Source: Corynebacterium glucuronolyticum DSM 44120 (GTDB taxonomy: Bacteria; Actinomycetota; Actinomycetes; Mycobacteriales; Mycobacteriaceae). From it: a stretch of DNA of 64,000 bases. The notes under the pieces were generated by a model. The model ran no database searches, was not told where the DNA came from, and saw only the letters and a list, made by a program, of their open reading frames with translations. Where the stretch lies: contig NZ_CP047452.1 of NCBI RefSeq assembly GCF_030440595.1, positions 2,728,001 through 2,792,000 on the forward strand. Direction: 5' to 3'. Made by a program: the position numbers and the translations under genes. Below, one piece after another: positions 40,411 to 61,191 of this stretch (the stretch's first letter is position 1; each line of letters begins with the position of its first letter).

Positions 40411-40495
40411 GACAAAAGTTACCGTTTTGCGTGGCAGCACGTTTGACCACCTGGGATTTTAACACACTTGCAGCTGCAGACTGTTAAGTTTTGTC
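40411..40495. repeat. 85-bp terminal-inverted-repeat element, copy D
   Basis: It begins GACAAAAGTTACCG and ends GTTAAGTTTTGTC, with a central GTTTGACCACCTGGG. The outer bases are inverted repeats. No ORF is inside. Confidence 0.85.
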
Positions 40496-40762
40496 TGGAG
40501 GTATGTGCACCCCGTATACGGCTACCCATGCGACGGTTCTGGAAGCTATTTCGGCGGTTACGTGTGGGGCTACTGCGGAGCGCTGGAAAAGGTAGACGTT
40601 TGTTCCTCGGCAGATGTGCCTGACTGGAATGATGGGTGGGCACCCCAGGGATATCCTTCTGCTTTTTCCTGGGAGGCACGGGTGTGACTTGGTGCGTGGT
40701 GGTTTTTTGGCGGGGGCTGCTGGGGTTTTGGGGTTTTTGGGGGGTGGTTGCGTCCTGGGGGC

Positions 40763-40847
40763 GACAAAAGTTACCGTTTTGCATGGCAGCACGTTTGACC
40801 ACCTGGGGTTTTAACACACTTGCAGCTGCAGACTGTTAAGTTTTGTC
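40763..40847. repeat. 85-bp terminal-inverted-repeat element, copy E
   Basis: Nearly identical to copy D, 352 bp further on. The flanks are duplicated too (GTTGCGTCCTGGG before, TGGAGGTATGTGCACC after), so the region 40393-40620 has been duplicated to 40745-40975. Element fragments with GGAAAAGGTAGACG lie at 40582 and 40936. No gene is seen in 40496-41182. Confidence 0.85.
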
Positions 40848-41139
40848 TGGAGGTATGTGCACCCCGTATGCGGCTGCCCAAGTGACAGTTTTGGAAGCTA
40901 TTTCGGTGGTTACGTGTGGGACTACTGCGGAGCGCTGGAAAAGGTAGACGTTTGTTCCTCGGCAGATGCGGCCACCTGGGGATTCTGGAGGGTGTACTTC
41001 GGGGTGCGAGCAAAAGGTAGAGCTCTATGAAGTATCAGATCCGCCCACCAGGGGGGTGTTCCTATATAGTTCGTCAACCTGAGGGGGGTAGTTGTTGGGG
41101 GTGACGTTCGGTGTGGGATTGTTTTTGGGTACGCCTGGG

Positions 41140-41166
41140 AGCCGATTGGCGTATTGCCAATCGGCT
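41140..41166. terminator. Hairpin after the IS110 transposase
   Basis: AGCCGATTGGC (41140-41150) and GCCAATCGGCT (41156-41166) form a perfect 11-bp stem with 5-base loop, 16 bases after the transposase stop. There is no T-run, so it may be a structural feature of the element end rather than a classical terminator. Confidence 0.5.
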
Positions 41167-41182
41167 GGGGTGTTTTAGCCCG

Positions 41183-42382
41183 TTAAGCTGTCTTCTGTTT
41201 TTCTGGTTCTTGGTAGAGGCTGTGATTTGCCATCATGGTGAACAAGACGGTGAGGCGTCTTCTTGCTAGAGCTACGACTGCGGCGTTGTGTCTCTTGCCT
41301 TCTTTACGTTTCCGCTCGTAGTATTGGCGTGAACGCTCGTGGTATCTGATCGCTGAAAATGAGGATTGCCATAGGGCGTTCTTTAATTTCTTGTTTCCCG
41401 CCCTGTTCGGTGATTTCGTGTTGATGGATGTGCCTGACTGGTTGGTCTGTGGGCATAGTCCTGCGTATGAGGCCATGTGGGAAGCTGTTTTAAAGTCCGA
41501 GAAGTCCCCGACTGTCATGAGGATCTGAGCTGCGGTTTTCGGGCCGATGCCAGGCATAGACAAGAGGATGTGGGTGTGCGGAACCTCCTCGATGAGGGCG
41601 CCTACTTTTTCTTCGATAACTTTCCGGTGGTCAAGCTTTGCCAAGGCATCAGTGGCGGACATGGCGACACCGAGTTCAACATATTCCGACCCGTGGATTG
41701 ACACGGTTTGATTCTTGATGGCATCCAGCAGGCCATCGATGATTTTCTCGGGGTTTCTTGCTTTGTACTTCTTCGCGAACGCGATCAGGCGTGCGCGCCC
41801 CATTCGTTTGATTTTTGTGGGGCCACCATATTTGGCCAGCATGTGCAACACCCACCGTCTGTGGATATTTTGGCCACGAAGTACCCGTTCGAATTCGGGA
41901 TAGGATCCAACAAGGGAGGAGCGGATTTGATTGATCAGCCTGGTGTAGGACCGGGCGAGGTCTTCATCGATACCGTTGAGTACTTTTAGCTGACTGAACA
42001 CCTGCTGGACACGGTCAACATTGCGCAAGGCATCGGGAAGATTGGCTCCTGCATGCGCGATGACATATGAGTCACGAACATCAGTTTTCGCATTTCCGAC
42101 ATGAACCCTCGACAGCTGCCGCATCGACAATCCAGGAAGATATTTAACGGTAATCCCCATGTCTTGGGCAACTGCGACGGTAAGCCTGCCAATATTGTTG
42201 GGCTGGTCGACCACAACCAAAATTTTCGAGGACAGGGCGAGGAAAAGGTCGAAGAACCTGCGTAAAGAATGTTCTGACTGGTCAATGCGTTTTGACTTTA
42301 CTTGTTTACCATCTTTGTCGAGGACACAAGCGTGATGAAAGTATTTACCGACATCGATGCCGATGACGAAATCGTAGGTCAC
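41183..42382 (-). mobile_element. IS110-family transposase gene
   Basis: The 399-aa protein has the N-terminal DEDD (RuvC-like) domain (FVIGIDVGKYFHHACVLD, VVVDQPNN, AKTDVRDSYVIAH) and the C-terminal Tnp_2 domain with the serine region LLSMPGIGPKTAAQILMTVGDFSDF and CPQTNQSGTS. It appears intact and of normal length, so the element may be active. GTG start at 42382. IS110 elements have no inverted-repeat ends, so I cannot place the boundaries exactly; they should lie within about 41.1 and 42.7 kb. Confidence 0.92.
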
Positions 42383-42660
42383 GAGGACGATTCTCCATGT
42401 GCGATATAAGTGTGAAACGGACAGATATCGTCACTGGGTTCGTCGGACATACTCTCGCTGGCATCCACATTACTTGAGACTTCACCAGGCATTCCGGCGA
42501 GTCAGGTTCCTATTAGCAGTTGAAGTATGTCACTGCCTTCGGCGGCATCACCCCCCGGATCATTTTCAGACAGGGACAAAAACAAGCCATACCGAAGCCA
42601 GTGACGAGTCCCGCTGCTAAGCAGGGACCGGAACAAACATAACCCACCCCAAAAGGGGAG
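42383..42660 (-). ncRNA. IS110 non-coding end, likely bridge-RNA region
   Basis: This ~280-base gene-free stretch lies directly upstream of the IS110 transposase, where the IS110 subgroup encodes its bridge RNA that pairs with donor and target DNA. Several short self-complementary pieces are visible, for example CCGGAATGCCTGG and GTCACTGGCTTCGG in the transcript sense, and two copies of GTCACTG (complement of CAGTGAC at about 42527 and 42599). The RNA and its ends are inferred from position. Beyond it to 42952 I see only short unsupported ORFs. Confidence 0.4.
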
Positions 42661-42952
42661 AAACCATGAATCCTCGGGTCCCCAGCAGGGAACTGCCTAA
42701 ACCGTAATGGGACCTTCGGCCCCGTAGAAAGGAGGCAAGATACGTCTAGGTTTTGCCAGGGGCGGGCTCAAACGACCGCTAACTGGACCTTGCCGGCGGG
42801 CGGAGGGCAGCAAAATCCGCGGAGACATCTGCATGCAATCTCGGTTGCGGACGGGAAAGATGCCCAAACCCCAGGCCGCGCCCCACCCGCAATGCATTTC
42901 GGTGTAGGTTGTAGGTTTGTCATCTTTTCGCGCGAAGGAGCTTTAGAACCGC

Positions 42953-43558
42953 ATGTCCCTTTCTAATATTCTCGATGCCGGCGCACTCCTGGAGGCCTTC
43001 GGCCCGTTCGTGTTGCCCGGCCTTGCAATCGTCGTGTTCATCGAGTCGGGATTCCTGTTCCCCTTCCTGCCCGGCGATTCCTTGCTGGTCACGGCCACGA
43101 TTCTGCGCGAGACGTTCCACCTGACGGTGCCGTGGATCCTGGGGGTAGCTATCGTCGCGGCGTTCCTCGGGGATCAGGTTGGTTTCTGGCTGGGGAAGAC
43201 GTTTGGCAGGCGGCTGTTCAAGGATGATGCCCGCGTGCTCAAGACGGAGTATCTGCAGCGTGCGGAGGATTTCTTTGCCAAGCATGGCCCGTTGGCGCTG
43301 GTGCTGGGGCGGTTCGTGCCGATTGTGCGCACCTACGTGCCGCTAGCAGCCGGAACGGCGGAGATGCACTACACCTCGTTTGTGCGTTGGAATGTTCTGG
43401 GGGCCGTCGGCTGGGTGTGCTCGATGGTTGCGGTGGGGTACTTCCTGGGGAATATCCCCGGCATCGCCGACAACATTGACGCGATCGTCATTATTATTGT
43501 GGGGATTTCTGTCCTACCGATTATCATTTCCTGGCTTAACCAGAAGAGGAAGAAGTAA
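42953..43558 (+). CDS. DedA-family membrane protein
   Basis: The 201-aa protein has the DedA/SNARE-associated layout: VVFIESGFLFPFLPGDSLLVTA near the N-terminus, GDQVGFWLGKTFGRRLF, and the conserved GRFVPIVRTYVPLAAGTAEMHY re-entrant region with essential Arg, then C-terminal helices. DedA proteins flip polyprenyl or phospholipids in the inner membrane. The next gene begins immediately after its stop. Confidence 0.9.
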   Translation: MSLSNILDAGALLEAFGPFVLPGLAIVVFIESGFLFPFLPGDSLLVTATILRETFHLTVPWILGVAIVAAFLGDQVGFWLGKTFGRRLFKDDARVLKTEYLQRAEDFFAKHGPLALVLGRFVPIVRTYVPLAAGTAEMHYTSFVRWNVLGAVGWVCSMVAVGYFLGNIPGIADNIDAIVIIIVGISVLPIIISWLNQKRKK

Positions 43559-44200
43559 GTGGAAGGCCACTTCACCACGTTTAATGTCCTCCCCGATGGA
43601 CATGTGCGGGGCTTCGACCTGCACGTGGAGAGATTGGTCTACGGTCAGCGATCGCTGTTCGGTCGGGGGCTCCCCGACGGGCTTGTCGACGCCATGCGGG
43701 AGCTGCGGGAACCAAACACCTACCGCGTTTCCTGCTTCGCGGATTCTTTCAACATAACCGCGCGGGCGATCCCACCCTCGGAGCCGATAAGCTGCGCTTT
43801 TTATCCATTGGTGCGGGAGCTGCCCCGCGTGAAGCACGACGACCTGGCCCCACAGTGGGAGGCGCAGCGGGCGGTCGCAGCCGACGACGCGATTTTGGTT
43901 ACCGGAGACGTGGTGACCGAGGGGACCATGTTCAACGTGGGGTTCATTACACCTTCGGGGACTTTGGAATGGCCCGTAGGTGAGCTTCTTCTCGGGACGA
44001 CGCAGCAGCTCATTGAGGGGGTGTGGCCGTCGGTACGCAAGGAAATTCGGGTGGGAGAGGTCGAAGGGTACATCGGAGCTATCGCGACGAACGCTGCGCG
44101 CGGGGTTCGGCTCATTACGCAGATCGATTCGGCGCTCGTGACGACGCCGCGGGGTGCCGAGATCGCTGCGGACATTGCGCGGGCGTACGAAGCGATTTAG
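43559..44200 (+). CDS. Aminotransferase class IV, PabC-like
   Basis: The 213-aa protein has the PLP fold-type IV pattern: FDLHVERL near residue 25, then EGTMFNVGFITPSG and a TTQQLIEGVWPSVRKEI region. It is short (class IV enzymes are about 270 aa), and the N-terminal lysine region is altered, so activity is uncertain. Aminodeoxychorismate lyase would complete p-aminobenzoate synthesis begun by pabAB 3 kb away. The two genes are separated only by the IS110 and repeats, which suggests an interrupted neighbourhood. GTG start directly follows dedA. Confidence 0.65.
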   Translation: MEGHFTTFNVLPDGHVRGFDLHVERLVYGQRSLFGRGLPDGLVDAMRELREPNTYRVSCFADSFNITARAIPPSEPISCAFYPLVRELPRVKHDDLAPQWEAQRAVAADDAILVTGDVVTEGTMFNVGFITPSGTLEWPVGELLLGTTQQLIEGVWPSVRKEIRVGEVEGYIGAIATNAARGVRLITQIDSALVTTPRGAEIAADIARAYEAI

Positions 44201-44269
44201 TTTTTGCAGCAGATTGGAGCGGACCCCCATTAATTTCGGAGATTTGGGACGAATCTGCTGCAAAAACTA
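44198..44269. repeat. 18-bp inverted repeat between convergent genes
   Basis: TAGTTTTTGCAGCAGATT (44198-44215) and its perfect complement at 44252-44269 flank 36 bases. The first arm contains the stop of the pabC-like gene and the second overlaps the stop of the opposite gene. It may terminate both, although the T-runs are inside the arms. Confidence 0.75.
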
Positions 44270-45211
44270 AAAGGTGGGGGGTCCCTTGGTGTAGGGCAGG
44301 CAGCGGTCGGCAGGAAACTCGCGACCGTGATTCACTTTCAGCGCGCGGCGAAGCTGAGCTAGCCAATCGTCGTTGGTGTAGGTGTAATTGGTTACGCGGA
44401 CGACGAAGATGCCCTCGCACTCGAGGTCGCGCTGGCGGCTGAGCTCATTGTTGGCAGCTTCCTCCGCAGAGAGACCATACTGGCCCCACGTCTTTCCGCG
44501 GCCGTCGTACTCAATTCCGACCGAGTGTTCGCGGTTGAGGAAATCCAGTCGAGCGATGCTGACTCCCCGGTAGTTGGTGATCGTCACTTGCTGCTCGAAG
44601 CCCTTGATGTTGTTTAGGTACAAAGAGACTTTCACGTCACTTTCGCGGGGGCTCTCGGAGCGATCGTTGACAAGCATTGCAGCTGTGCGGGCACGCTCGA
44701 TGTTGGCGAAATTCGAGCGGGCAGCGACGGCTTCCGCGAGGTCGGCACGGGTGAGCTTCCCTTTGCGGGCAAGGATGTCGCCAAGGCGGACAGCCTCATA
44801 AAGGCCATGCCACCTGGCAACATCAATGACCGTCACCGCCGGGGTAGTTAGGGTGACCTCGATGCCTTTAAAAGGGGTGGTCGTCATGTGGGTATCGGGG
44901 ATATTTCGGCCATCGGCGTATTTGCTTGTGCGCCCGCGGACCTCGGGGCGGAAGGTCGTCGATAAGAGCATGTGGGGGTACGCCCACATAGCGGCTGCGG
45001 ATCTGCCCACGAGGTGGCGCCCGCTAACTCCTTGTGCACCAGAAGCAAGAACCGAACGCTGATTTGACCTCAACCCATAAAAATTCCAGGTTGGGTAATA
45101 GACACCGCGTGCCAGCCTTTTCATCCTTCCGGCACGGAACCCCTCGATGACGTGAAGGCGCTCGCCGGGTCCCAGTGAGCGGATTAGAAGTAATTCATCC
45201 CCCGATTGCAT
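44267..45211 (-). CDS. AbiEi/DUF559-like protein
   Basis: The 314-aa protein has an N-terminal winged-helix region with RLARGVYYPTWNFYG, the 'repressor-like' form of AbiEi-type antitoxins. A middle region contains TTPAVTVIDVARW. The C-terminal part resembles the DUF559/VSR endonuclease fold (YRGVSIARLDFLNREHSVGIEYDGRG, then DLECEGIFVVRVTNYTYTND). The conserved D...E.D pattern suggests nuclease ancestry. No AbiEii-type toxin is next to it, so it is a solitary member; function uncertain. Confidence 0.65.
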   Translation of the reverse strand: MQSGDELLLIRSLGPGERLHVIEGFRAGRMKRLARGVYYPTWNFYGLRSNQRSVLASGAQGVSGRHLVGRSAAAMWAYPHMLLSTTFRPEVRGRTSKYADGRNIPDTHMTTTPFKGIEVTLTTPAVTVIDVARWHGLYEAVRLGDILARKGKLTRADLAEAVAARSNFANIERARTAAMLVNDRSESPRESDVKVSLYLNNIKGFEQQVTITNYRGVSIARLDFLNREHSVGIEYDGRGKTWGQYGLSAEEAANNELSRQRDLECEGIFVVRVTNYTYTNDDWLAQLRRALKVNHGREFPADRCLPYTKGPPTF

Positions 45212-45253
45212 GGACTTAGTTTCGCACGGGTACTACTCCCCCGCAACCGGTAG

Positions 45254-45871
45254 CTACCCGCAGGCGATGCCGGTAGTGTGGACGGGGCAGTAGCCGCCCG
45301 GGTTTTTGCGGAGGTACTGCTGGTGCTCTTCCTCGGCAAGGTAGTAGTCCACGTGGGCGCGGATCTCGGTGGTGAGATCGCCGTAACCTGCCTCTTTGAG
45401 CTTGGGGGCGTAGGCGGAGGCGATGCCACGGGCGATCTCGGCCTGCTCATCGGTCTCAGTGAAGATGCATGAGCGGTACTGGGTTCCCACGTCGTTGCCC
45501 TGCCTAAAGCCCTGGGTGGGATCGTGGGCCTCGAGGGCGATCTTCACCAACTGCTCGAACGAGATTTTTTCCGGATCGTACACAACCTTCACCACCTCGG
45601 CGTGGCCGGTGCGGCCGGTGCAGACTTCCCGGTAGGTGGGGTTTTGGGTGTAGCCGCCGGCGAATCCCACGCTTGTGGTGATTACACCAGGGGTGGACCA
45701 GAATAATTTCTCGGCGCCCCAAAAGCAGCCCAGGCCGAATAGGACGTAAGCACCAGGGGAATCAAGTGGAGTGCCAAGGACCGCGTGGGTGCCCGGGTTG
45801 GGGAGGACGGGCGTTTTTCCGCCCTTGAGGGCGGACTCGCGGGTGGGCATAACCGGTTCATTAATAAACAT
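45254..45871 (-). CDS. msrA: Peptide methionine sulfoxide reductase A
   Basis: The 205-aa protein has [13 protein letters not shown] with the catalytic Cys, [46 protein letters not shown] and a C-terminal resolving Cys in GIACG. It reduces methionine-S-sulfoxide with thioredoxin. It is divergent from sodA, so the two oxidative-stress genes share a control region with GGGTTACCTTACCC (45874-45887) near the msrA start. Confidence 0.95.
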
Positions 45872-45926
45872 AGGGTTACCTTACCCCTGGTCAGGGGCGG
45901 GGGTAGAAAAAATTTTTCTGAATCCC

Positions 45927-45954
45927 TTTACAAGTCCGGATTTTCCCCTATCAT
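45927..45954 (+). promoter_or_regulatory. sodA promoter
   Basis: TTTACA (45927-45932) and TATCAT (45949-45954) are 16 bases apart, giving a start near 45961 and a short leader with AAAGGA before ATG 45990. Confidence 0.75.
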
Positions 45955-45989
45955 GGGGGCCACGTCAACAACCAAGAAAGGACGAATTC

Positions 45990-46598
45990 ATGGCTGATAT
46001 CTACACCCTCCCCGAACTCGACTACGCATACGACGCTCTGGAGCCGCATATCTCCGCTGAGATTATGGAGCTGCACCACTCCAAGCACCACGCAGGTTAC
46101 GTCAAGGGCGCCAACGCCGCGCTCAAGGCACTCGAGGAGGAGCGTGCCGGCGAGGCCAACGCCGACAGGATTCGCGCCTACACCAAGAACCTCGCGTTCA
46201 ACCTTGGTGGCCACACCAACCACTCCATCTTCTGGAAGAACCTCTCCCCCAACGGTGGCGGCGAGCCCACCGGCGAGCTTGCCGAGGCTATCAAGGCAGA
46301 CTTTGGTTCCTTCGAGCAGTTCAAGGCTCACTTCTCCGCAGTAGCCACCGGCCTGCAGGGCTCCGGCTGGGCAGTGCTCGGCTACGACCACCTCTCCGGC
46401 CACCTCATCATCGAGCAGCTCACCGACCAGCAGGGCAACATCTCCGTTAACTTCACCCCGCTGCTCATGCTCGACATGTGGGAGCACGCCTTCTACCTCC
46501 AGTACAAGAACGTCAAGGCCGACTACGTCAAGGCCGTCTGGAACGTCTTCAACTGGGACGACGTGGCAGAGCGCTACGCTGCAGCGAAGGCTAAGTAG
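45990..46598 (+). CDS. sodA: Superoxide dismutase (Mn/Fe type)
   Basis: The 202-aa enzyme begins [34 protein letters not shown] (first metal His) and contains [35 protein letters not shown] and [19 protein letters not shown] (Asp and His ligands). It removes superoxide in the cytoplasm. Start is ATG 45990 behind AAAGGACG. The G in GSGWAVLGY and the following Q give no secure choice between Mn and Fe. Confidence 0.97.
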
Positions 46599-46622
46599 GT
46601 TCTAGAGGTTCTGGCGAACCCG

Positions 46623-46826
46623 TTAGTTTGTGCGCGGTGCCACTTTTTGTGTTGCTGCGCACTTTTTTATTGCTCTAACTGTGGTGATCACCGCGAGGGC
46701 AAAGAGGGGAACCAGGATGATCCCCATGCTCAGGGCGTTCCAGTCGAGGGCGGTGAACAGGATGACGTCCACGGCAAGCAGGATCCGCAAGCCGATGGCC
46801 AGCAACGGGGACGAGAGGTTTTTCAC
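46623..46826 (-). CDS. Small two-helix membrane protein
   Basis: The 67-aa product has helices LLAIGLRILLAVDVILFTAL and MGIILVPLFALAVITTVRAI and a basic tail. The GTG start at 46826 follows AAGAAGGAGCC. A TATACT box on the reverse strand near 46857-46863 is a probable -10. The family is not recognised. Confidence 0.65.
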   Translation of the reverse strand: MKNLSSPLLAIGLRILLAVDVILFTALDWNALSMGIILVPLFALAVITTVRAIKKCAATQKVAPRTN

Positions 46827-47007
46827 GGGGCGGCTCCTTCTTTTTCTGCGGATTGTGCCAGTATAGGTGGTTTATTGTGCGGTTTCGGGGGTTATGGGCA
46901 ACGTTCGTTTCTTTCCCCAGGGGTGGGTGTTGCTTGGTGTCGGAACGAAAGTTCTTGTCTGACGTATCGGGGGCACCCTGTCTGTGCTGTGTTCTACTCT
47001 TGAGGCC

Positions 47008-48147
47008 ATGAGAACGAAGGCCCTGGTACCCGTCATGGCGTGGTTTGTCGCGGTCATTGTGCTGGCGGTTACGGCGCAGCCCCGCTGGTTTGTCATCCAC
47101 GCGTTCACGCTGGGCGCGGTGACGACGTCGATTGTGTACTGGTCGCAGTATTGGACGGACAAGTTCATGCGGCAACGCTCTGATGCTTTTCGACGCTGCG
47201 TTGCCCTCAATGCGTTCATCCTGCTCATGTTCGTGGGCCAGGCTGTGGAGATGGTGGCGCTGCTCGGCGTGGGCGCTGCGGGGGCTGTCGGGGTACTGGT
47301 GTACCACGGGTGGCGGCTGGCGCGGCAATACCGGCGCGGGCGCCGTTTTTCCAGCTCCGTCGTGGGATACGTGATCGCGGCGGCGTGCTTCGTGGTTGGC
47401 GCGGGGGCGGGTGTGCTGCTGGAATGGTGGCCCTCGGACATGGTGCGCGGGGCGCATGTGGCGTTTACGGTGCTCGGGTTCGTGGGGATCACGGCGCTAT
47501 CGACGCTCGCATTGATGCTGCCGATGGTGTGGCGGACGCAGATGAAGTCCTCGCGGATCGAGGTGGCGATTGCGCTCCTCACGGTGGGTGTGGTGATTGT
47601 TCCCCTGTCTGCGGTGGGGCTCGTTGTGTATGTTGCGGGCTGGCTGTGGGCTGCCGCCGGGTGGGTGCGTGAGATCACCACCGTTCTGCGGGACCCACGC
47701 GACCGCGTGGGATATGCGGCGCTGACGATGGCGATGTCCATCGTGTGGCTCATCGGCGGGCTGGTTACATATGCGTTTTCGGGTGTGGTTCCGACGGAGG
47801 CTCTGGTCATCGGGTTCATCGGACAGCTGCTCATCGGCTCCATGAGTTTCCTGCTGCCCTCGCGGATGGGTGGCGGGCCCGGCGCGGTGCGGGCCGGCAT
47901 GTACGCGCACAACCGCGGGGCGTACTACCGGGTGGTGCTCACGAACTTGGGGCTGCTCGTGGGGTTTCCGGTGCTGGCGGTGGCGTCGTTGGCAATGTTC
48001 CTGCCGGCGCAGTTCGTGTCGAGGCGGGAGCAGCAGGCGGTTATCGCAGGCGAAGCGGAGAAGCCGGACTCGGCGCGCTATAACCCCTGGTGGCAGGTGG
48101 CTGGTGGCGTTTTGACGGTGGTAGCCGTGTGGGCGCTGACGCTGTAA
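47008..48147 (+). CDS. Polytopic membrane protein like the membrane part of actinobacterial copper oxidases
   Basis: The 379-aa protein has about ten helices. RWFVIHAFTLGAVTTSIVYWSQYWTDKFMRQ and IGFIGQLLIGSMSFLLPSRMGGGPGAVRAGM resemble the membrane module found in front of some actinobacterial multicopper oxidase/nitrite reductase-like proteins, but no copper domain is attached here. The ATG at 47008 is preferred over an upstream in-frame GTG, with TACTCT as -10 eight bases before. It is downstream of sodA. Its role is unknown. Confidence 0.65.
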   Translation: MRTKALVPVMAWFVAVIVLAVTAQPRWFVIHAFTLGAVTTSIVYWSQYWTDKFMRQRSDAFRRCVALNAFILLMFVGQAVEMVALLGVGAAGAVGVLVYHGWRLARQYRRGRRFSSSVVGYVIAAACFVVGAGAGVLLEWWPSDMVRGAHVAFTVLGFVGITALSTLALMLPMVWRTQMKSSRIEVAIALLTVGVVIVPLSAVGLVVYVAGWLWAAAGWVREITTVLRDPRDRVGYAALTMAMSIVWLIGGLVTYAFSGVVPTEALVIGFIGQLLIGSMSFLLPSRMGGGPGAVRAGMYAHNRGAYYRVVLTNLGLLVGFPVLAVASLAMFLPAQFVSRREQQAVIAGEAEKPDSARYNPWWQVAGGVLTVVAVWALTL

Positions 48148-51639: not shown

Positions 51640-52172
51640 CCGGCTGGCGGGGAGCTGGCGACAAAAGGTAACGCGATGCCGGGTAGCGGTTTCGGCGACC
51701 TGGGGTTTCCGCACATCTGCAGCGACAAACCGTTAACTTTTGTCACGAGCGGTATAGGGCCGCACACAAACCTCTCGCTTTGCAGGGTGGCGGGTGTGAC
51801 GGCTCGGGGTTTCCCGCCCGGTTGGCGAGGAGCTGGCGACAAAAGGTAACGCGATGCCGGGTAGCGGTTTCGGCGACCTGGGGTTTCCGCACATCTGCAG
51901 CGACAAAACGGTAACTTTTGTCACGGGCGGTATAGGGCCGCACACAAACCTCTCGCTTTGCAGGGTGGCGGGTGTGACGGCTTGGGGTTTCCTGCCCGGT
52001 TGGCGAGGAGCTGGCGACAAAAGGTAACGCGATACCGGGTAGCGGTTTCGGCGACCTGGGGTTTCCGCACATCTGCAGCGACAAAACGGTAACTTTTGTC
52101 ACGAGCGGTGTAGAGCCGCACACAAACCTCTCGCTTTGCGGGGTGGGGTTTCCTGTCCGGTTGGCGGGCAGA
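51640..52172. repeat. Three tandem 178-bp repeats, each with an 85-bp element (A, B, C)
   Basis: The elements lie at 51660-51744, 51838-51922 and 52016-52100, exactly 178 bp apart and almost identical. Each begins GACAAAAGGTAACG and ends GGTAACTTTTGTC or a close variant, with the centre GGCGACCTGGGG. The 93-bp linkers (with GGGCCGCACACAAACCTCTC) are duplicated too. No gene lies in 51549-52229 apart from the repeats. Confidence 0.95.
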
Positions 52173-54259: not shown

Positions 54260-54265
54260 TATCCT
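54260..54265 (+). promoter_or_regulatory. -10 box of the DUF2020 gene
   Basis: TATCCT lies seven bases before ATG 54273, in the leaderless arrangement. It overlaps the hrrS upstream region, so the two divergent genes probably influence each other. Confidence 0.45.
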
Positions 54266-54272
54266 ATGCCCT

Positions 54273-54764
54273 ATGTTCAAACGGCTTGCCTTTATACCCG
54301 TGTTGTTTTTGGTTGGGTGTTCCGCAGAAGAGGTTCCGTCGCAGGCTCCGGAGCCTGTGGTAAAGGAGGTCCAGGCTGAGGATGGGGAGTGCCCCTACCT
54401 GGATAGCCAAGCGGTAGCCCAGATGAATGGCCAGAAGGTGCTACGAGTGGGCGTCGACAAGCAATTTGAGGTGCCGGCGTGCCAGTTTTGGTCTTATTGG
54501 GAGGAACCGCAACTGACGGTGATTGTGCGGGAGATGGCGAGTGAGGGCGGGGCGCGGGCCGTGGTCGACCACTATGCGCCGGTGGCGGAGACGTCGCCGG
54601 CTGAGGAGCCGGAGGGGTGGAGCGGCGGGCGCGGGCCCGTGGAGGGGGGCGCGGTGTATGCCGTGAGCAAGGGGGCGACGGCCGTGGTTGTGCTCACTGA
54701 CCAGGAACAATCGGTGAAGGCGCAGCTTGTGGCCGAGGAGACGATCAGGAACCTACAGCTCTAG
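54273..54764 (+). CDS. DUF2020 lipoprotein
   Basis: The 163-aa protein starts with a lipoprotein signal, RLAFIPVLFLVGC-S (lipobox LVGC at residues 12-15). The corynebacterial DUF2020 domain follows: GECPYLDSQAVAQMNGQKVLRVGVD, then VPACQFWSYWEEPQLTVIV, with the two Cys that pair in the family. It sits on the outer face of the inner membrane. Its function is unknown. The long in-frame extension upstream is excluded by the lipobox and the -10 box. Divergent from hrrS. Confidence 0.8.
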   Translation: MFKRLAFIPVLFLVGCSAEEVPSQAPEPVVKEVQAEDGECPYLDSQAVAQMNGQKVLRVGVDKQFEVPACQFWSYWEEPQLTVIVREMASEGGARAVVDHYAPVAETSPAEEPEGWSGGRGPVEGGAVYAVSKGATAVVVLTDQEQSVKAQLVAEETIRNLQL

Positions 54765-54875
54765 CTCGGCCTCGAGTTCCTCCAGGCTGATTGTCCCTAT
54801 TTCCCCACGACGAGCAGCCTCAGCTTCCTCCTCGAGTATGCGGATGTATTCCAACTCCGAACCAGTCACGGCCAT
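54753..54875 (-). CDS. Acidic 40-aa peptide
   Basis: The ORF (SELEYIRILEEEAEAARRGEIG...) is highly acidic and helical, starts three bases after the stop of the 52-aa membrane peptide, and overlaps the 3' end of the convergent DUF2020 gene by 12 bases. Its start has no obvious ribosome site, so it depends on coupling. It may be real but is the weakest gene of this operon. Confidence 0.35.
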   Translation of the reverse strand: MAVTGSELEYIRILEEEAEAARRGEIGTISLEELEAELEL

Positions 54876-54878
54876 ATT

Positions 54879-55037
54879 CTACTCCGTGATCGACACATCA
54901 TTGTAGGGCATGTGCGCCGACACCCAGGGGAAAACAACCTCCATGAGCAGGAAGAACACCGCGACGGCGAGTGCGATCATGAGCAGCGTTTTGAGCCAGG
55001 TAGGGCCGGGGAGCGCGCGCCAAAGGTAACCGTACAT
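54879..55037 (-). CDS. Single-helix membrane peptide, sortase neighbour
   Basis: The 52-aa product MYGYLWRALPGP... has one membrane helix (LKTLLMIALAVAVFFLLMEVVF) and the ending WVSAHMPYND. The ATG at 55037 lies one base after the sortase stop (TGACATG). Similar peptides occur beside sortase genes in corynebacteria, as far as I recall. Its role may be in sortase assembly, but this is inference. Confidence 0.65.
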   Translation of the reverse strand: MYGYLWRALPGPTWLKTLLMIALAVAVFFLLMEVVFPWVSAHMPYNDVSITE

Positions 55038-55038
55038 G

Positions 55039-55800
55039 TCAAGACTCCATTTCTTGAGGGACGCTAGTGCTGTCCGCGGTTTTGTCCTGGGAGCGGACGT
55101 GCACCGCATGGATGATCATGCGCTCCGCGTTGGAAAACTGCGGGTGGCAGGTGGTGAGCGTGACGACAGGGAGCATGTCCGGGGTCGGATCCTCCTCGTC
55201 GGTGCCGGGAAGGGCGTGGACAACCGAGTAATCGTCGGGGGTAGTGATGTGGCGGCCCTGGACGTGGCTGTAATCGCCAGTTGTGACGCGCTGTTGGACA
55301 TCTGGTGGCAGGCAGGATGTGTTCTGGTCGTCTTCGATGGGGAGGACTTTGTAGATCTCCCACGTGGTGCTCGTCTCGATGATGATTGCGTCGCAGGCGT
55401 GGAGGTGGCCCAGATCATTAAACGGCGCGCCCTTGCCGACGCGGTGGCCGGCGACCGCAAAATTACCCGGCTGGCCGGGGAGTTCGGAGTCCTCGTAGTG
55501 GCCGGGGCCGGCTTTTAGCTCTTCCTCATCCGTGCCCTCGATGATGGCGAACTGGTAATCCGGGCCGAAGGCGGGGATGTAGAGGCGCGCCATGGCCTGG
55601 CCAAGCTCCGGGGAGACCCGATGACGAGGGTTCTCCCACCGCTGCGATAGGTTTTGCTCCGCCTGCACCTGATTGCGCTGCGCCTCCAGGTTTGTCCAGT
55701 AGGCTTCATAAAAGGCGAACAATAAACAGACGACACCCAGCGTGATGAGCAGCTCACCAAGGAACTGCAGCCAGGAAAATCGTTTTGCCGAGTTGTTCAC
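55039..55800 (-). CDS. Class E-type sortase
   Basis: The 253-aa protein has one N-terminal membrane helix (FLGELLITLGVVCLLFAFYEAY). An extracellular sortase barrel follows with AVAGHRVG (catalytic His), LTTCHPQFSNAERMII (catalytic Cys in TLTTC and Arg). The TLTTC form is that of class E sortases, the housekeeping wall-anchoring type in many actinobacteria. GTG at 55800 is the start because the long upstream frame is antisense to the next gene. The large surface proteins in this window lack LPxTG, so its substrates are elsewhere. Confidence 0.88.
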   Translation of the reverse strand: MNNSAKRFSWLQFLGELLITLGVVCLLFAFYEAYWTNLEAQRNQVQAEQNLSQRWENPRHRVSPELGQAMARLYIPAFGPDYQFAIIEGTDEEELKAGPGHYEDSELPGQPGNFAVAGHRVGKGAPFNDLGHLHACDAIIIETSTTWEIYKVLPIEDDQNTSCLPPDVQQRVTTGDYSHVQGRHITTPDDYSVVHALPGTDEEDPTPDMLPVVTLTTCHPQFSNAERMIIHAVHVRSQDKTADSTSVPQEMES

Positions 55801-55848
55801 GTGCTCGATAATATCCTTTCGTAGCCTATTGATAAAGGAGCCGCCGCT

Positions 55849-57000
55849 GTGATGGACGCACTCGTCTACCTCGTATCCGCCGTGCTCAAACTGTGGCACA
55901 CCTTCCTCCACGGCGGACTCGGAGTCAACGAAAACATCGCCTGGATCCTCTCCTTCGTCGGCCTCATCATCACCGTCCGCAGCCTCATCGCACCCCTGGC
56001 CTGGAAGATGTACGTCTCCGCCCGCCGCACCGCCATCATGCGGCCACACATGGCCTCACTCAAAGAGGACTACCGCGGCAAACTGGACAAAGAAAGCCAA
56101 GCGGAGCTCTCCCGCAAATCCCAGCAGCTCATGGACGAGCACGAGGTCAACCCCATGGCCGGGTGCGCCCCCATGCTCATCCAATTCCCCGTCATCCTCG
56201 GCCTCTACCGCATGGTGTTGCGCATCGCCCGCCCCGAAGGCGGACTAGGCACATCACCGTACCCGTCCGTCGGCTTCCTCTCCTCCGCCGACGTCGGCTC
56301 CTTCCTGGAAACACGCGCCTTCGGGCTACCCATCGCCGCCTACGCCTCCATGCCTGAGGCGCAACTCAACGAACTGGGCACCACCGGCGACCACCTCGTC
56401 CACACCATCACCCCCATCGTCATCGCCGCCACCTGCTTCATGACGCTCAACATGATCCTGTCCACCATCCGCTCCTTTGAGACAATGGACTGGCGCAGCG
56501 GCTTCGCCGTCAACGTGAGCTTCTCCATGGTGTTCTTCGCCATCTACACCCCCTTCATGATCCTCACCCTCGCCTTCAACGGCCCCATCCCCGTGGCGAT
56601 CATCTTCTACTGGTTTGTGAACAACTTCTGGACCATGTCACAACTCATCGTCCTGTGGACCATGCTGACTGTCCGCCACCCGCTCACCCCGGAATTCAAG
56701 GAATTCCGCGACGGCGCACGCCGCAAACGCTACGCGCCGGTGACGCTGCTGGTGAAGGCGCTGTGGGCGCGGCTGCGCGGGCGCGATGCCTCCGACTACG
56801 TGGCGGAGCGGCGCGCGCTGAAGGATGCGGCGAAGCTGCGGAAGAAGGAGGACAAGGCGTTTAAGAAGGAGAAGAAGCGGCTGAAGAAGGAGGAGGCTGC
56901 TGCGAAGAAGAAGAAGGTGTCGGCGGATTCTTCGGCGGAGAATCCGTCGGCGGAGGCGGAGGGGGCTTCCTCGGCGGAGGCATCCTCGGCTACCGAGTAG
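55849..57000 (+). CDS. YidC/Oxa1-family membrane protein
   Basis: The 383-aa protein has about five helices and the family core (GGLGVNENIAWILSFVGLIITVRSLIAPLAWKMYVSARRTAIMRPHMASLKEDY, then GCAPMLIQFPVILGLYRMVLRIA, then PVAIIFYWFVNNFWTMSQ). The long Lys/Ala/Glu tail (about 315-383) is typical of ribosome-binding YidC2-type proteins. It inserts membrane proteins. As it lies beside the sortase rather than the rpmH locus, it is probably a second YidC. GTG 55849 and ATG 55852 are both possible starts behind AAAGGAG. Confidence 0.8.
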   Translation: MMDALVYLVSAVLKLWHTFLHGGLGVNENIAWILSFVGLIITVRSLIAPLAWKMYVSARRTAIMRPHMASLKEDYRGKLDKESQAELSRKSQQLMDEHEVNPMAGCAPMLIQFPVILGLYRMVLRIARPEGGLGTSPYPSVGFLSSADVGSFLETRAFGLPIAAYASMPEAQLNELGTTGDHLVHTITPIVIAATCFMTLNMILSTIRSFETMDWRSGFAVNVSFSMVFFAIYTPFMILTLAFNGPIPVAIIFYWFVNNFWTMSQLIVLWTMLTVRHPLTPEFKEFRDGARRKRYAPVTLLVKALWARLRGRDASDYVAERRALKDAAKLRKKEDKAFKKEKKRLKKEEAAAKKKKVSADSSAENPSAEAEGASSAEASSATE

Positions 57001-57028
57001 GGGCGGGGCCCGATTTCGCGCCCATATC

Positions 57029-57663
57029 AGTGCGCGCTTATTGCGCCGTTGCGCACAGCACCGGCTGCCACTCCTGCACGCTCGACAATCGCAAGCGACA
57101 GCGCTGGGTTAAGGAATTCCCATACAACTCTACTTATTGCGCCGTTGCGCACAGCACCGGCTGCCACTCCGGTGTGCTCGGCAATCGCAAGCGACAGCGC
57201 TGGGTTAGGGAATTTCCATGCAGCTCTACTTATTGCGCCGTTGCGCACAACCGGCCGACTCAAGCAGCGAGCGGACGCAAGGCAACATGAGCACGCCTAC
57301 CCCGACGCGCAAAGCCCGACTCGCCAGTACCTTCCCCGCCGAATCCCGCATATCAGTGCGCACTTATTGCGCCGTTGCGCACAGCACCGGCTGCCACTCC
57401 GGCACGCTCGACAATCGCAAGCGACAGCGCCGGGTTAGGGAATTCCCATACAGCTCTACTTATTGCGCCGTTGCGCACACATGGATGGCATGGCGGGCAG
57501 GTGCGGGGAGACATCAGTATTTGTGGGTCATTTTAGTGCGCACTTATTGCGCCGTTGCGCACAGCAGCGGCTGCCACCCCGGCACGCTCGACAATCGCAA
57601 GAAGCAGCGCTGGGTTAGGAAATTTCCATACAGCTCTACTTATTGCGCCGTTGCGCTAGATGG
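57029..57663. repeat. Array of seven 22-bp repeats with 96-bp spacing
   Basis: TTATTGCGCCGTTGCGCACA-type elements lie at 57038, 57134, 57230, 57364, 57460, 57544 and 57640. Neighbours of each group (57038/57134/57230, 57364/57460, 57544/57640) are exactly 96 bp apart, with near-identical spacers containing CACTCCGGCACGCTCGACAA-like and GCGACAGCGCTGGGTTAGG blocks. Three copies are preceded by GTGCGC(A/G), so GTGCGCA and TGCGCAC can form a 7-bp stem around them. The last copy runs up to the TetR stop codon. No cas genes are near. Confidence 0.92.
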
Positions 57664-58276
57664 AGTAGTCGGCGGCGGGTTCGCCGAGCAGCTGCTTGGC
57701 GAGGGTGCGGGCGAGGTCGAGGGGCTCGCGAGACTTCATGTGCTGGGCGTTGGTGATGCCACCGTCGATAAGAATCATGAGCTGACGGGCGATCGACTGG
57801 GACGGGTACCCGTTGCGCTCGGTGAGGAGCTCCGTCAAAGTGTTGAAAATCCAATCGCGGTGCTCGGCAACAGCAGCGACGATATTCTGCTCGCTCTCCG
57901 ACTCCGGATTCGGGTACTCGCTGGCCGCATGGGTGAAGTGGGAACCGGGGTAGCCCTCCTTCTCCTGCTGGTCGATGACCTGATCGAACATGGCGTTGAT
58001 CTTTGCCTCGGGGTCGGTGAGGTGCTCCGTGCGGCGCTCGAACTCTTCGGTCCACTTCTGCGCCATCTCATTAATGTAAGCAATGACGAGATTGTCCTTG
58101 GAACCAAACAACGAATACAGGGATGCCTTGGCTACATCGGCCTCGCGGAGGATGCGGTCAATACCAATGACGCGGATGCCTTCCGTGGTGAACAGGTTGG
58201 TTGCGCTGGCCAGCAGCCGCACACGCGGGCTCGGCCGGTCCCGTCTCCTGCTCTTCGCCTTCTTCGTTGTAGCCAT
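57656..58276 (-). CDS. TetR-family regulator
   Basis: The 206-aa protein has a basic start and the TetR helix-turn-helix LLASATNLFTTEGIRVIGIDRILREADVAKASLYSLFGSKDNLVIAYI, then a ligand-binding domain without recognisable features. ATG at 58276 is six bases from TATTGT (complement of 58283-58288), so it is probably leaderless. TAGACAGCCCAGTCT next to this box is a possible autoregulatory site. Target genes are unknown. Confidence 0.88.
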   Translation of the reverse strand: MATTKKAKSRRRDRPSPRVRLLASATNLFTTEGIRVIGIDRILREADVAKASLYSLFGSKDNLVIAYINEMAQKWTEEFERRTEHLTDPEAKINAMFDQVIDQQEKEGYPGSHFTHAASEYPNPESESEQNIVAAVAEHRDWIFNTLTELLTERNGYPSQSIARQLMILIDGGITNAQHMKSREPLDLARTLAKQLLGEPAADYSI

Positions 58277-58295
58277 ACCCTAACAATAGCAAAAC

Positions 58296-58311
58296 TAGAC
58301 AGCCCAGTCTC
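58296..58311. promoter_or_regulatory. Candidate TetR operator
   Basis: TAGACAGCCCAGTCTC has AGAC/GTCT half sites six bases apart, resembling known TetR-type operators, and lies just upstream of the -10 of the TetR gene. Confidence 0.4.
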
Positions 58312-58335
58312 TCCAAGACCCACCGCGCGGGACAT

Positions 58336-58369
58336 AAAAAACCGCCCTCCGCGAAACGCGGAAGGCGGG
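58336..58369 (-). terminator. Intrinsic terminator of the GlsB-like gene
   Basis: CCGCCCTCCGCG (58342-58353) pairs with CGCGGAAGGCGGG (58357-58369) around AAA. On the reverse strand six T follow. It separates the GlsB-like gene from TetR. Confidence 0.88.
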
Positions 58370-58382
58370 CTAAGAGACGAGG

Positions 58383-58649
58383 CTACTTCTTCTTGGTGAT
58401 GAAGCCCACGATCCAGAGCAGCAAGCACGCGCCAATGAGGCAGGTAATGAAGCTGAGGATCCAGTTACCGGTGGAGCCACCCAGGCCGAACAGGCCAAGG
58501 ACCCAGCCACCGAGGAAGCCGCCAACAACACCAACGATGATGTTCAGGAACAAGCCCATCTGCTCATCAGTCTTCATAATCTTGGAGCCAATCCAACCGG
58601 CGAGGCCGCCAACGATAATCCAACCAAAGAAACCAAGTGCAGGTGACAT
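58383..58649 (-). CDS. GlsB/YeaQ/YmgE-family stress membrane protein
   Basis: The 88-aa protein is made of three Gly-rich membrane helices with LGFFGWIIVGGLAGWIGSKIMKTDEQMGLFLNIIVGVVGGFLGGW, the family pattern ('transglycosylase-associated protein'), and a KKK end. Members rise under stress. ATG follows AAGGAGAAT. Promoter TATACT (58699-58694) with TGGCAA (58721-58716), 16 apart. Confidence 0.9.
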   Translation of the reverse strand: MSPALGFFGWIIVGGLAGWIGSKIMKTDEQMGLFLNIIVGVVGGFLGGWVLGLFGLGGSTGNWILSFITCLIGACLLLWIVGFITKKK

Positions 58650-58685
58650 AGAATATTCTCCTTAAAAACTAATACCGAACGGTTG

Positions 58686-58721
58686 TACTGGCCAGTATAC
58701 GCATTAAAAGCGCGTTTGCCA
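58686..58721 (-). promoter_or_regulatory. Promoter of the GlsB-like gene with perfect palindrome
   Basis: TACTGGCCAGTA (58686-58697) is a perfect 12-bp palindrome that includes part of the -10 box TATACT (58699-58694), so a bound regulator would repress. The -35-like TGGCAA is at 58721-58716. Confidence 0.45.
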
Positions 58722-58741
58722 GCCAGCGGAGAATTTGTTAC

Positions 58742-59641
58742 CTAATCTTTGCAATCAGGGCGGACAACCATCATCGGGCAGGGAGCCGACTGCAGCAGAG
58801 CACGAGAGGTGGAGCCGAGCAGCATGCCCTTGAAGCCACCACGCCCATGGGATCCGACGACGAGGAGCTGAGCGCCCTCGGCGGCATCGGCAAGCGCACG
58901 GACCGGACGATCGCGGGTGATGATCTTCTCGACCTCCACATCCGGGAACTCCTCGGCGTAGCCGGCCAGACGCTCGGACAACAGCCGGTGCTGCTCCTCC
59001 TCGACCGCCTCCCACTGCTGCTGAGCGGCGGCGAGACCAGCAAGAGAGGCCTGCACCTGCATATCCATCCAGGTGTGGACAGCCTTCAGCTTGGCACCAC
59101 GGGCGTGAGCCTCCTCGAAGGCGAGACGCGTGGCGCGCTCGGACACCTCGGAACCATCGACACCGACGACGACCGGACCGTACTTGTTATCCGGCGTCAG
59201 CTGGTTATCCTCACGGACGACGACCACCGGGCAGCACGCGTGGGACACAACGGCGGCGGAGACCGAACCCATGACCATGCCCGAAAGCCCACCGAGACCA
59301 CGGGAACCCATGACGATCATCGTTGCGTCCTCAGCCATCTCGAGGAGCATATCGATGGGGCTACCCTCCGCAACCGTGTGGCCGATCTTGATGTTCGGAG
59401 CGATCCCCAAAGCGACCTTCTTGGCAGACTCGATCTTTTCCATGGTCTCGGCCTGAAGGTCGTCGTAAAGCTCCTGGGGCGGGATCATCCCCTCAGCGTA
59501 GAGGAACTGCGGCATGGAGTAGCTGGAAACCAGCTGGAGCGGGCAGTCGCGCTTGTTCGCCGTATTCGCGGCCCACGCGACGGCAACCTCCGCGGCCTTC
59601 GAGCCGTCGACGGCACAAACAATCAGTTCTTCCTTGGACAT
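58742..59641 (-). CDS. Universal stress protein, two Usp domains
   Basis: The 299-aa protein has two tandem Usp domains, each with the ATP-binding G-x2-G-x9-G-S/T motif: MGSRGLGGLSGMVMGSVSAAV and VGSHGRGGFKGMLLGSTSRAL. The domains start VCAVDGSKAAE and VVGVDGSEVSE. Actinobacterial double-Usp proteins bind ATP and act in stress and stationary-phase survival. ATG at 59641 behind GAAGGGTT. Confidence 0.92.
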   Translation of the reverse strand: MSKEELIVCAVDGSKAAEVAVAWAANTANKRDCPLQLVSSYSMPQFLYAEGMIPPQELYDDLQAETMEKIESAKKVALGIAPNIKIGHTVAEGSPIDMLLEMAEDATMIVMGSRGLGGLSGMVMGSVSAAVVSHACCPVVVVREDNQLTPDNKYGPVVVGVDGSEVSERATRLAFEEAHARGAKLKAVHTWMDMQVQASLAGLAAAQQQWEAVEEEQHRLLSERLAGYAEEFPDVEVEKIITRDRPVRALADAAEGAQLLVVGSHGRGGFKGMLLGSTSRALLQSAPCPMMVVRPDCKD

Positions 59642-59712
59642 GATGAAAACCCTTCTCTCGCGGATACCTGACTTCAGTTTACCGGCAGGGGGTGGTTGGC
59701 CGGTAGCCTTTT

Positions 59713-59859
59713 TTACTCAATGGGGGGAAGAGTGTGGGGTGCGTCGGCGTTTGCCGGGAAGAGGACGTGGTACAGTGCCCTGATCACGTCGGCAATGGCC
59801 TTGCCGATGCCGTCGGAAGAGTAAGTAACAAACGCGTCTGTGAGAAAATCAAGGTTCAT
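59713..59859 (-). CDS. 48-aa peptide, divergent overlap with the next gene
   Basis: The product begins MNLDFLTDAFVTYSSDGIGK, continues as an amphipathic helix IADVIRALYHVLFPANADAPHT, and ends LPPIE. It resembles small corynebacterial mycomembrane (Por-like) peptides in size and amphipathicity but has no firm match, so I leave function open. -10 TACGAT (complement of 59867-59872) lies seven bases before its ATG, so the message should be leaderless. Its start codon overlaps the opposite start of the RluA-type gene. Confidence 0.6.
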   Translation of the reverse strand: MNLDFLTDAFVTYSSDGIGKAIADVIRALYHVLFPANADAPHTLPPIE

Positions 59860-60742
59860 GCGCCCTATCGTACAGCCACTGCCCCCGCGCAACGGGCTCA
59901 CCGCCTCCCGCGTGCGCGCACCGTATTCGATTGTGGCGCGCGATTTTTTGCGTTTGGTGATTGAAGGGCAGCGACACAGGCACCCATTAGATAATGCTCG
60001 TGCGTTGGATCGGCGGTTTGCCGCGGGGGAGGTGCGGGACCGGCGGGGGCAGGTGATTGCGCCGGGGCAGGTGTTGGCCGCTGGGGAGGACGTGTACTTC
60101 TACCGCATGCCGGCGCCGGAGCCGCATGTGCCTTTTTCTATTTCTCCTGTGTATGAAGATGCGCGCATACTTGTGGTGAACAAGCCGCCATTTTTGGCGA
60201 CCGTGCCGAAGGGGGCGCACATTACGGAGACAGCCGTCGTGCGGCTGCGGCGGGCGACGGGGAATGAGGAGCTCTCCCCCGCGCACCGCTTGGATCGGCA
60301 CACCAGTGGGTTGCTGCTGTTCACGAAGTCGCGGGCATTTCGGGGCGCGTACCAGGAGATGTTTGCCCGGCGTCAGGTGGAAAAGACGTATCATGCTGTG
60401 TCTTCTGTGCCTTCGGCTGTTGCGCCGGGAACCGTGTGGCGGTCGCGGATCTCCAAGGTGCCAGGCGATTTGCAGGCGCACACGGTTGACGGGGAAGTTA
60501 ATGCTGAGACGCATGTGGTTTCTGTTTCTGGGCGGGTGCACGTGTTGGCGCCGCATACGGGGAAAACGCACCAGCTCAGGCTTCATATGTGCGAGGCCGG
60601 CGTGCCCATCGTGAACGATCCGCTGTACCCCGCCATCCGCAACGACCTCATGGACGACTTCACGCGGCCTTTGGGGCTCACGGCGTACTCGCTGCGGTTC
60701 GAGGACCCGGTGGATGGGCGGGAGCGGGAGTTTTCGCTGTAG
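59858..60742 (+). CDS. RluA-type RNA pseudouridine synthase
   Basis: The 294-aa enzyme has HRLDRHTSGLLLFTKS with the catalytic Asp, AVSSVP, and GRVHVLAPHTGKTHQLRLHMCEAGVPIVNDPLYP, all typical of the RluA/Rsu superfamily. It modifies uridine in ribosomal or transfer RNA. Start may be ATG 59858, or GTG 59840 giving six more residues. I prefer the ATG because it opens MRPIVQPLPPRNGL, which is usual for the family. Confidence 0.88.
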   Translation: MRPIVQPLPPRNGLTASRVRAPYSIVARDFLRLVIEGQRHRHPLDNARALDRRFAAGEVRDRRGQVIAPGQVLAAGEDVYFYRMPAPEPHVPFSISPVYEDARILVVNKPPFLATVPKGAHITETAVVRLRRATGNEELSPAHRLDRHTSGLLLFTKSRAFRGAYQEMFARRQVEKTYHAVSSVPSAVAPGTVWRSRISKVPGDLQAHTVDGEVNAETHVVSVSGRVHVLAPHTGKTHQLRLHMCEAGVPIVNDPLYPAIRNDLMDDFTRPLGLTAYSLRFEDPVDGREREFSL

Positions 60743-60768
60743 GTTTTGCTGGGGCTTCAGCGGGGTGC

Positions 60769-60854
60769 GAGAAAAAGGTAGACGGATTCTGTGTAGCAGG
60801 TTTGACCACCTGGAACGCTGGGGGCGACCCGGAAATAGCCGTCTACTTTTTGCC
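60769..60854. repeat. Diverged terminal-inverted-repeat element, copy F
   Basis: GAGAAAAAGGTAGACGG and CCGTCTACTTTTTGCC are its inverted ends, and the centre is again GTTTGACCACCTGG. It follows the RluA-type gene by 26 bases. Confidence 0.75.
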
Positions 60855-60950
60855 AGGAGAGGTGGTTACGCTCGTGAACACGCGGACAACCCGTACCCGA
60901 ATACCTGTGGGAACCGCGAGCGATCACATGCCAAATGAGAAGCCGCCTAC

Positions 60951-61094
60951 TTAGCTTTCGAGGTAATAGCGGATAACTCGCTTATCTTCTAGATCGCGGA
61001 CTTTTTGAATGTGGCTGTTCTTCTGCAGGCTGCGGTATACCTGGTTTGATGTGAGTCCCGTTGCTGCCAGCCTGGACCTGATGGTGGCGCTCTA
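60951..61094 (-). pseudogene. Helix-turn-helix gene remnant
   Basis: The reverse strand reads SATIRSRLAATGLTSNQVYRS, then LQKNSHIQKVRDLEDKRVIRYYLES to a stop at 60951. It looks like the last ~47 residues of a winged-helix protein, directly after an in-frame stop and next to element G, so it is a fragment. Confidence 0.4.
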
Positions 61095-61106
61095 ATGGAG
61101 GGCGTA

Positions 61107-61191
61107 GACAAAAGGTAACCGGATCTAGGGTAGCAGATCTGACCACCTGGGAATTCCGCAGGTTTGCAGCAACAAAACCGTAAGTTTTGTC
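61107..61191. repeat. 85-bp terminal-inverted-repeat element, copy G
   Basis: Begins GACAAAAGGTAACCGG and ends CCGTAAGTTTTGTC, with the centre CTGACCACCTGGG. A half copy (GGACAAAAGGTACCG) follows at 61221. It lies in the gene-free part of 60743-61442. Confidence 0.9.

Follow-up and report, generated by a model that had tools for sequence, protein, structure and literature searches.

The window analyzed here is a 64-kb stretch (positions 2,728,001-2,792,000) of the 2.87-Mb single-contig genome of Corynebacterium glucuronolyticum DSM 44120 (hereafter the home genome), and it contains seven copies of a short element with inverted terminal arms, each present where the original prediction had placed it and measuring 85 bp in six cases and 86 bp in one (Table 1). 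The copies are members of a family that occurs in many Corynebacterium genomes, its short elements combining a conserved centre with matched arms that differ between species groups. The central GACCACCTGG reported for four copies is seen in c1, c2, c6 and c7, and GGCGACCTGG forms the centre of the remaining three. Common ends had been ascribed to all seven, which fails for c6, whose arms (Table 1) stand in place of GACAAAAGG. Two of the three proposed partial copies are supported as elements of a second arm type (40584 and 40938, E 0.005 and 0.001), and the third, at 61221, is unsupported at 11.7 bits (E 2). Because c1 and c2 are near-identical and c3 to c5 form a tandem array with a period of 178 bp, the seven copies amount to about four independent sequences. 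Allowing up to 3 mismatches, the arm motif is found at 19 positions in the window, compared with 7.9 (standard deviation 2.6) in shuffled sequence, where none of 100 shuffles is as high, and the seven copies score 58-90 bits with a covariance model whose training set includes all of them. Other genomes are designated below by G numbers, with G190 a sister of the home genome, and further loci by L numbers.

Table 1. Positions in the window and covariance-model scores of the elements
Feature	Position	Strand	Score	Description
c1	40411..40495	+	84.8 bits	85 bp, first arm type
Second-type element	40584..40670	+	22.1 bits, E 0.0049	Arms GGAAAAGGTAGACG..., altered centre
c2	40763..40847	+	86.3 bits	Near-identical to c1, 352 bp downstream in coordinates
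Second-type element	40938..41000	+	24.6 bits, E 0.0012	Left part with GGCCACCTGGGG, right part unrecognisable
c3	51660..51744	+	89.6 bits	85 bp, opens the 178-bp tandem array
c4	51838..51922	+	88.1 bits	85 bp
c5	52016..52100	+	88.8 bits	85 bp
c6	60769..60854	+	58.4 bits	86 bp, second arm type AAAAAGGTAGACGG / CCGTCTACTTTTT, same place occupied in sister G190
c7	61107..61191	+	78.5 bits	85 bp, without counterpart in the G190 alignment

Distribution and anatomy of the element family

We built a covariance model from 14 copies in the home genome and scored 150 of 705 first-look candidates there, which gave 23 distinct places at E ≤10, the 14 training copies included, and extended the family beyond the original seven copies as had been anticipated. 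Nineteen of the 23 places have E <0.001, and of the nine that are not training copies five fall below this value and four lie at 0.045-1.8. Outside the window, arrays of three and four copies with a period of 104 bp stand at 2,694,887 and 2,709,289. Related corynebacteria, to which the original prediction had pointed as a place to search, also contain matches to the model, in at least 34 of 201 genomes of the genus, the home genome included (E ≤0.1; at most 22 candidates scored per genome).

The middle shared across genomes is ACCTGGGGTTTTG, frequently with GTAGCAnATnTGACC ahead of it. The pattern RCCTGGGGTTTTG is found in 68 of 121 genus genomes, with 305 matches against 11 for the reversed pattern (hand-summed) and as many as 46 in one genome, counts that include some transfer RNA (tRNA) terminators or chance matches and are inflated because tRNA terminators contain part of the core. 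A scan of all species genomes with AGCANATNTGACCACCTGGG, which detects one version of the middle only, returned 12 stretches, seven of which are contigs of Candidatus Corynebacterium gallistercoris (G105) and five of which are single matches in other bacteria, about the number expected by chance. Both solitary matches to GATAAAAGGTACC that we examined are 23S rRNA genes.

Beyond the genus, the core gave 59 matches in 246 genomes against 7 for a control (hand-summed), some of them tRNA terminators. Five of 28 such loci that were fetched reach an inverted-repeat score of 9 (95% of background) and L254 alone exceeds 14 (99%), as measured against a background drawn from the fetched loci with elements among them; as a single locus of the 28 passes the 99% level, the reach of the family beyond the genus is a hint only. 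At L254, L250, L258, L262 and L267, which lie in other genera of the order, ACCTGGGGTTTTG is flanked by inverted repeats with scores of 9-20.5, and G252, a genome of the same bacterial family, has eight core matches.

Across many Corynebacterium genomes the elements span about 70-90 bp, with an asymmetric conserved middle between inverted arms of 14-22 bp that match within an element and differ between species or species groups; G020, G021, G083, G066 and G141 all carry forms of ATGTCAC. The complete genome G015 has 36 arm matches, of which 30 combine into 15 inverted pairs whose starts lie exactly 67 bp apart, which sets the element length at 87 bp, and the other six are a solitary arm, a decayed element and four matches with 3 mismatches. 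The sixteenth, decayed G015 element also measures 87 bp. Length is fixed in the best-measured sets (77-89 bp): among seven arm families that were picked by their arms, and within a search window of ±6 bp, all 16 G015 elements measure 87 bp, all seven of G105 type A 85 bp, all seven of G105 type B 89 bp, all four of G080 82 bp and all 11 rows (10 distinct) of the G168 group 77 bp, and 13 rows from the home genome and G190 vary between 83 and 86 bp. Two arm types are commonly adjacent in G105, G015, the G168 group and the home genome, and arrays in G020, G091 and G141 consist of head-to-tail units of 71-179 bp. In the home genome the - strand holds only the three places immediately to the right of dnaA, and all 20 places outside 7,252-130,358 are on the + strand; polar orientation relative to replication was rejected as a general property, as G015, G020 and G084 are mixed.

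Arm pairing and constraint

The arms of an element covary. In 17 loci hand-picked from 32 places (11 of 23 in the home genome, where eight tandem copies and four decayed or weak matches were dropped, and six of nine in G190) and aligned with MAFFT rather than fitted to a structure, the arm covariation score was 0.408 against 0.178 after shuffling (standard deviation 0.026; none of 500 shuffles as high), and it was 0.105-0.141 with the arms slid out of register. Double-changed cells numbered 54 against 26.5, and the inner arm columns were 67% paired with their own partner compared with 52% with the partners of other loci, a level that none of 5000 shuffles attained. Terminal inverted repeats are present, with 75% of arm cells paired in this set, and are found in the seven arm families as well; the element at 2,677,420 has a perfect 19-bp arm pair that is unlike the other arms of the set. 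An extension of the complementarity into the flanks, with p 0.000-0.048 against random pairing, was discarded at p 0.14-0.66 against within-family shuffles.

Conservation between loci is concentrated in the arms and the core. In constraint sets drawn from G015 (A, four elements, and B, eight, with four of 16 left out), G105 (A and B, seven each) and G168a (five rows from four related genomes), which exclude the home genome, G080 and G168b, mean pairwise identity within a set is 0.89-0.98 in the arms and 0.83-1.0 in the core; it is 0.35-0.60 in the filler between core and right arm and 0.37-0.40 in the 15-bp flanks, which were measured in G015 and G105A only. The left inner part is likewise conserved (0.85-0.91) in both G105 types and in G015 A. 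Because one recent burst of copies would diverge evenly, arms and core are kept by each copy, or by a process acting on all of them. Selection on structure, one of two causes put forward in the original prediction, is backed by the pairwise covariation of the arms and by the exact lengths in the best-measured sets.

Such a process could be neutral, with the elements as functionless quasi-palindromes whose arms are kept alike by template switching during replication and whose copies arise through tandem slippage. Arms that covary as the sequence drifts would be expected under this account, and whole-unit changes in copy number are indeed seen at shared sites (one exact 85-bp unit; 9 against 2 cores in a comparison that involves the draft genome G021), yet it does not explain an asymmetric core kept over much of the genus or exact lengths at independent loci, and we consider it quite unlikely.

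Arm covariation alone cannot separate a hairpin from a protein that binds two like arms, and a structured RNA transcribed from the core strand, folding into a hairpin with a conserved loop, would also have covarying arms around a conserved, loop-like core; several elements, moreover, lie at gene ends or ahead of genes. Against an RNA, wobble pairs and folding have no strand preference. The argument from an excess of G-U mismatches in the arms was lost after deduplication, which left 23 G-U and 21 A-C events (10 and 9 in a second set), and folding z scores of -2.3 and -2.6 on the two strands are near-equal relative to shuffles. An RNAalifold consensus of the 14 home-genome copies had an energy near zero and no double changes. 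The filler is exact in length and freer in sequence, and arms are uniform within several genomes. Rfam gave no credible match, with none at the gathering threshold in the window and, for seven loci at E ≤1, mir-290 only (E 0.51, below half its gathering score). We therefore judge a structured RNA distinctly improbable. A known terminator, which the original prediction had named as something that would undo it, is not clearly matched either: the two element regions scanned for intrinsic terminators gave 2 and 3 terminator-like sites, where shuffled sequence gave 1.5 and 1.0. A single one of these sites overlaps the end of an element (61195-61178, - strand), and the others lie outside the elements.

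Mobility tests and neighbouring sequence

The second cause put forward in the original prediction was a mobile non-autonomous unit similar to miniature inverted-repeat transposable elements (MITEs) or repetitive extragenic palindromes (REPs). Mobile palindromes of this kind, MITEs or REP-, ERIC- or Correia-like repeats, would be spread in trans by an arm-reading enzyme with the core as an internal binding site, and they would account for precise bounds in unrelated flanks, for inverted ends, for the roughly 15 dispersed copies in G015, for two end types with hybrids as in Correia elements, and for the differences between the home genome and G190 at several sites. The tests for mobility nevertheless went the other way. 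Target-site duplications of 3-9 bp were sought and found in none of 58 rows (57 distinct elements, with one entered twice), and 2-bp duplications occurred in six of 58 rows against 3.6 in shuffles (p 0.14), which is no excess and covers the TA duplication of the Correia type. No larger arm-bounded unit containing a transposase was seen in G015 or the home genome, the two genomes examined; in the latter the search used the first arm type at 1 mismatch, and the leftover matches were single, some of them in 23S rRNA. A Y1 transposase (Y1_Tnp, as in the REP-associated RAYT family) was detected in none of 20 genomes of the genus that had been selected because they match the core or the model, and in five of 14 controls, a result by which RAYT/REP membership was ruled out. 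Searches of plasmids and phages with the G020 array, of plasmids with home-genome and G015 stretches, and of viral contigs with one core pattern gave no match, and dead copies would not retain arms and core while their filler diverges.

Comparison of the sister genomes G020 and G021 also argues against mobility. All 13 distinct G021 sites with an exact core, one of which we read as a chance match inside a gene, have a counterpart in G020, nine in the stretches fetched first and four once their G020 regions had been fetched. Among these four later counterparts one is decayed, one has several extra units, one is short by exactly one 85-bp unit and one was seen by alignment only. Exact cores number 9 in G020 and 2 in G021 at another shared site, although arrays may have collapsed in the G021 assembly, a draft in 80 contigs. 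Between the home genome and G190, the 2,709,289 site holds four elements in the former and one, of different sequence, in the latter; some G190 elements stand at places where different sequence is found in the home genome; and G190 lacks the 40411 cluster, along with its IS110, at the corresponding position. Several sites thus differ between the two genomes, but no clean empty site was seen. Mobile palindromes are thus an unlikely explanation in our view, and of the proposed MITE/REP-like label only the broad sense stands, that of a REP/ERIC-like short imperfect palindrome, and not that of a strict MITE.

An IS110-family transposase gene (PF01548, PF02371) lies at 41183-42382, beside the 40411 cluster, and nothing ties it to the elements. 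In G015 a crude scan of open reading frames (ORFs) found nine of 15 elements overlapping an ORF of at least 500 bp, three of them by ≤24 bp; three elements inside such ORFs sit ahead of the gene, because the Pfam domain starts well after the element, and a tRNA-Leu gene ends 11 bp before one element.

Further repeats are present in the window. Positions 6268-6876 hold roughly five tandem 124-bp units (97% alike) that carry GCGAGTTAACGATCCCCAGC, and an array of similar appearance, with CTATCGAGTTAGCGATCCCAGCAACC, is found immediately upstream of dnaA in the home genome (about 2,863,800-2,864,500). A second repeat family with CTTATTGCGCCGTTGCGCAC or a close form occurs at 12476-12802, 57037-57249 and about 20890, with tandem units of 135 and 96 bp, and is seen in G190 too. 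Two or so 258-bp repeats (98% alike) occupy 25052-25620 within a 1650-codon minus-strand ORF (24228-29180), and a 12-bp tandem repeat, TGCAATCTACTT, stands at 61366-61405, immediately ahead of the gene for an ABC-transporter ATPase (61443-62165).

Interpretation and comparison with known systems

Taken together, the elements look more like an undescribed multi-part DNA site than a jumping element. By the tests made they are not members of the MITE or REP/RAYT families, nor is the family a MITE defined by a single terminal repeat. Our preferred reading, which we hold tentatively and at a little under an even chance, is that they are chromosomal DNA sites of fixed geometry, with inverted arms around a conserved asymmetric core, and we infer that the arms are read jointly with the core, as a single DNA site or hairpin. 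The two arms would be brought together in a DNA hairpin or cruciform or by a protein that binds both, and a conserved factor may read the core. The arms might then turn over by changing together, either with a coevolving arm-binding factor or through arm-to-arm copying, which is known as quasi-palindrome template switching.

Position on the chromosome bears on what such sites might do. We located dnaA in 15 genomes and collapsed element clusters by hand, from searches of unequal sensitivity in which GCC-variant matches were dropped for G080 and G084. Close to dnaA, the home genome has 10 of its 11 clusters within 250 kb, G015 has nine of 12 within 330 kb and G080 has all five within 360 kb; in G083 (all four within 320 kb) and G141 (all five within 400 kb) the clusters keep to a single side of the gene. 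This nearness in some species suggests a possible role in chromosome handling near the origin. A more specific proposal, which we think rather unlikely as a whole, is a genus-wide system of sites with a conserved core factor and an arm-reading factor whose specificity shifts between species groups, concentrated near the replication origin in some species and amounting to an undescribed, fast-evolving form of centromere-like or genome-conflict recognition.

Several observations weigh against reading the elements as DNA sites of fixed geometry. Arm pairing in the set from the home genome and G190 is no higher than 75%, and the covariation shuffle leaves the relatedness of the sequences in place, which the slid control does remove; the first, redundant mismatch count, at 76 G-U to 46 A-C, spoke for an RNA. 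The left inner part is free in G015 B (0.57) and G168a (0.29), so the GTAGCA box is absent from some versions of the element. Arms are nearly uniform within G015, G105 and the G168 group but vary between loci in the home genome and G190, and for this reason one sequence-specific factor per genome is an incomplete account. G015 also has a solitary arm and two hybrid elements that combine its two arm types, with arms partly unlike, and the hybrids fit expectation insofar as neighbouring copies may recombine through the core. Nearness to dnaA is absent in G084, G020, G215 and G168, and the radii given above were picked after seeing the data; under a single rule applied to nine genomes (one eighth of the genome on each side of dnaA), 34 of 71 clusters fall inside where a quarter is expected, driven by the home genome and G015. 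No binding factor was found in a search confined to Y1 transposases.

The pattern of change in the elements is of interest in itself. Sites read by chromosome proteins, parS among them, generally retain the same sequence for long periods, and mobile repeats tend to retain their ends and lose their middles; the elements described here do the reverse, in that the middle stays, both ends change together and the spacing is exact. If a protein reads the arms, the elements would serve as a test of how rapidly a DNA site and its reader can coevolve; if none does, they are a natural record of how short palindromes copy one arm onto the other.

Known systems share some of these properties. ERIC, BOX and other intergenic imperfect-palindrome repeats are short palindromes, both dispersed and in tandem, that encode no enzyme, and the elements resemble them in being short palindromes with dispersed and tandem copies and no enzyme of their own; they differ in having ends that vary by species group and yet match within the element, together with a conserved asymmetric core. 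Correia repeat enclosed elements have a fixed length, two end types, hybrids and a TA target duplication. Fixed-length units, two end types and hybrid combinations recur here, whereas no target duplication was found and the centre is kept while the ends vary between species groups. REPs and bacterial interspersed mosaic elements (BIMEs) with RAYT are small palindromes in tandem and inverted pairs, an arrangement seen here as well, but Y1_Tnp was absent from the 20 genus genomes searched. The terminators of tRNA genes, with CCCCAGG/CCTGGGG stems, have CCTGGGGTTTTG in common with the elements; in these terminators, however, the core itself forms the stem, next to a tRNA gene, as at L078, L081, L248, L264 and L265, where the tRNA genes were confirmed and the terminator stem was read by eye.

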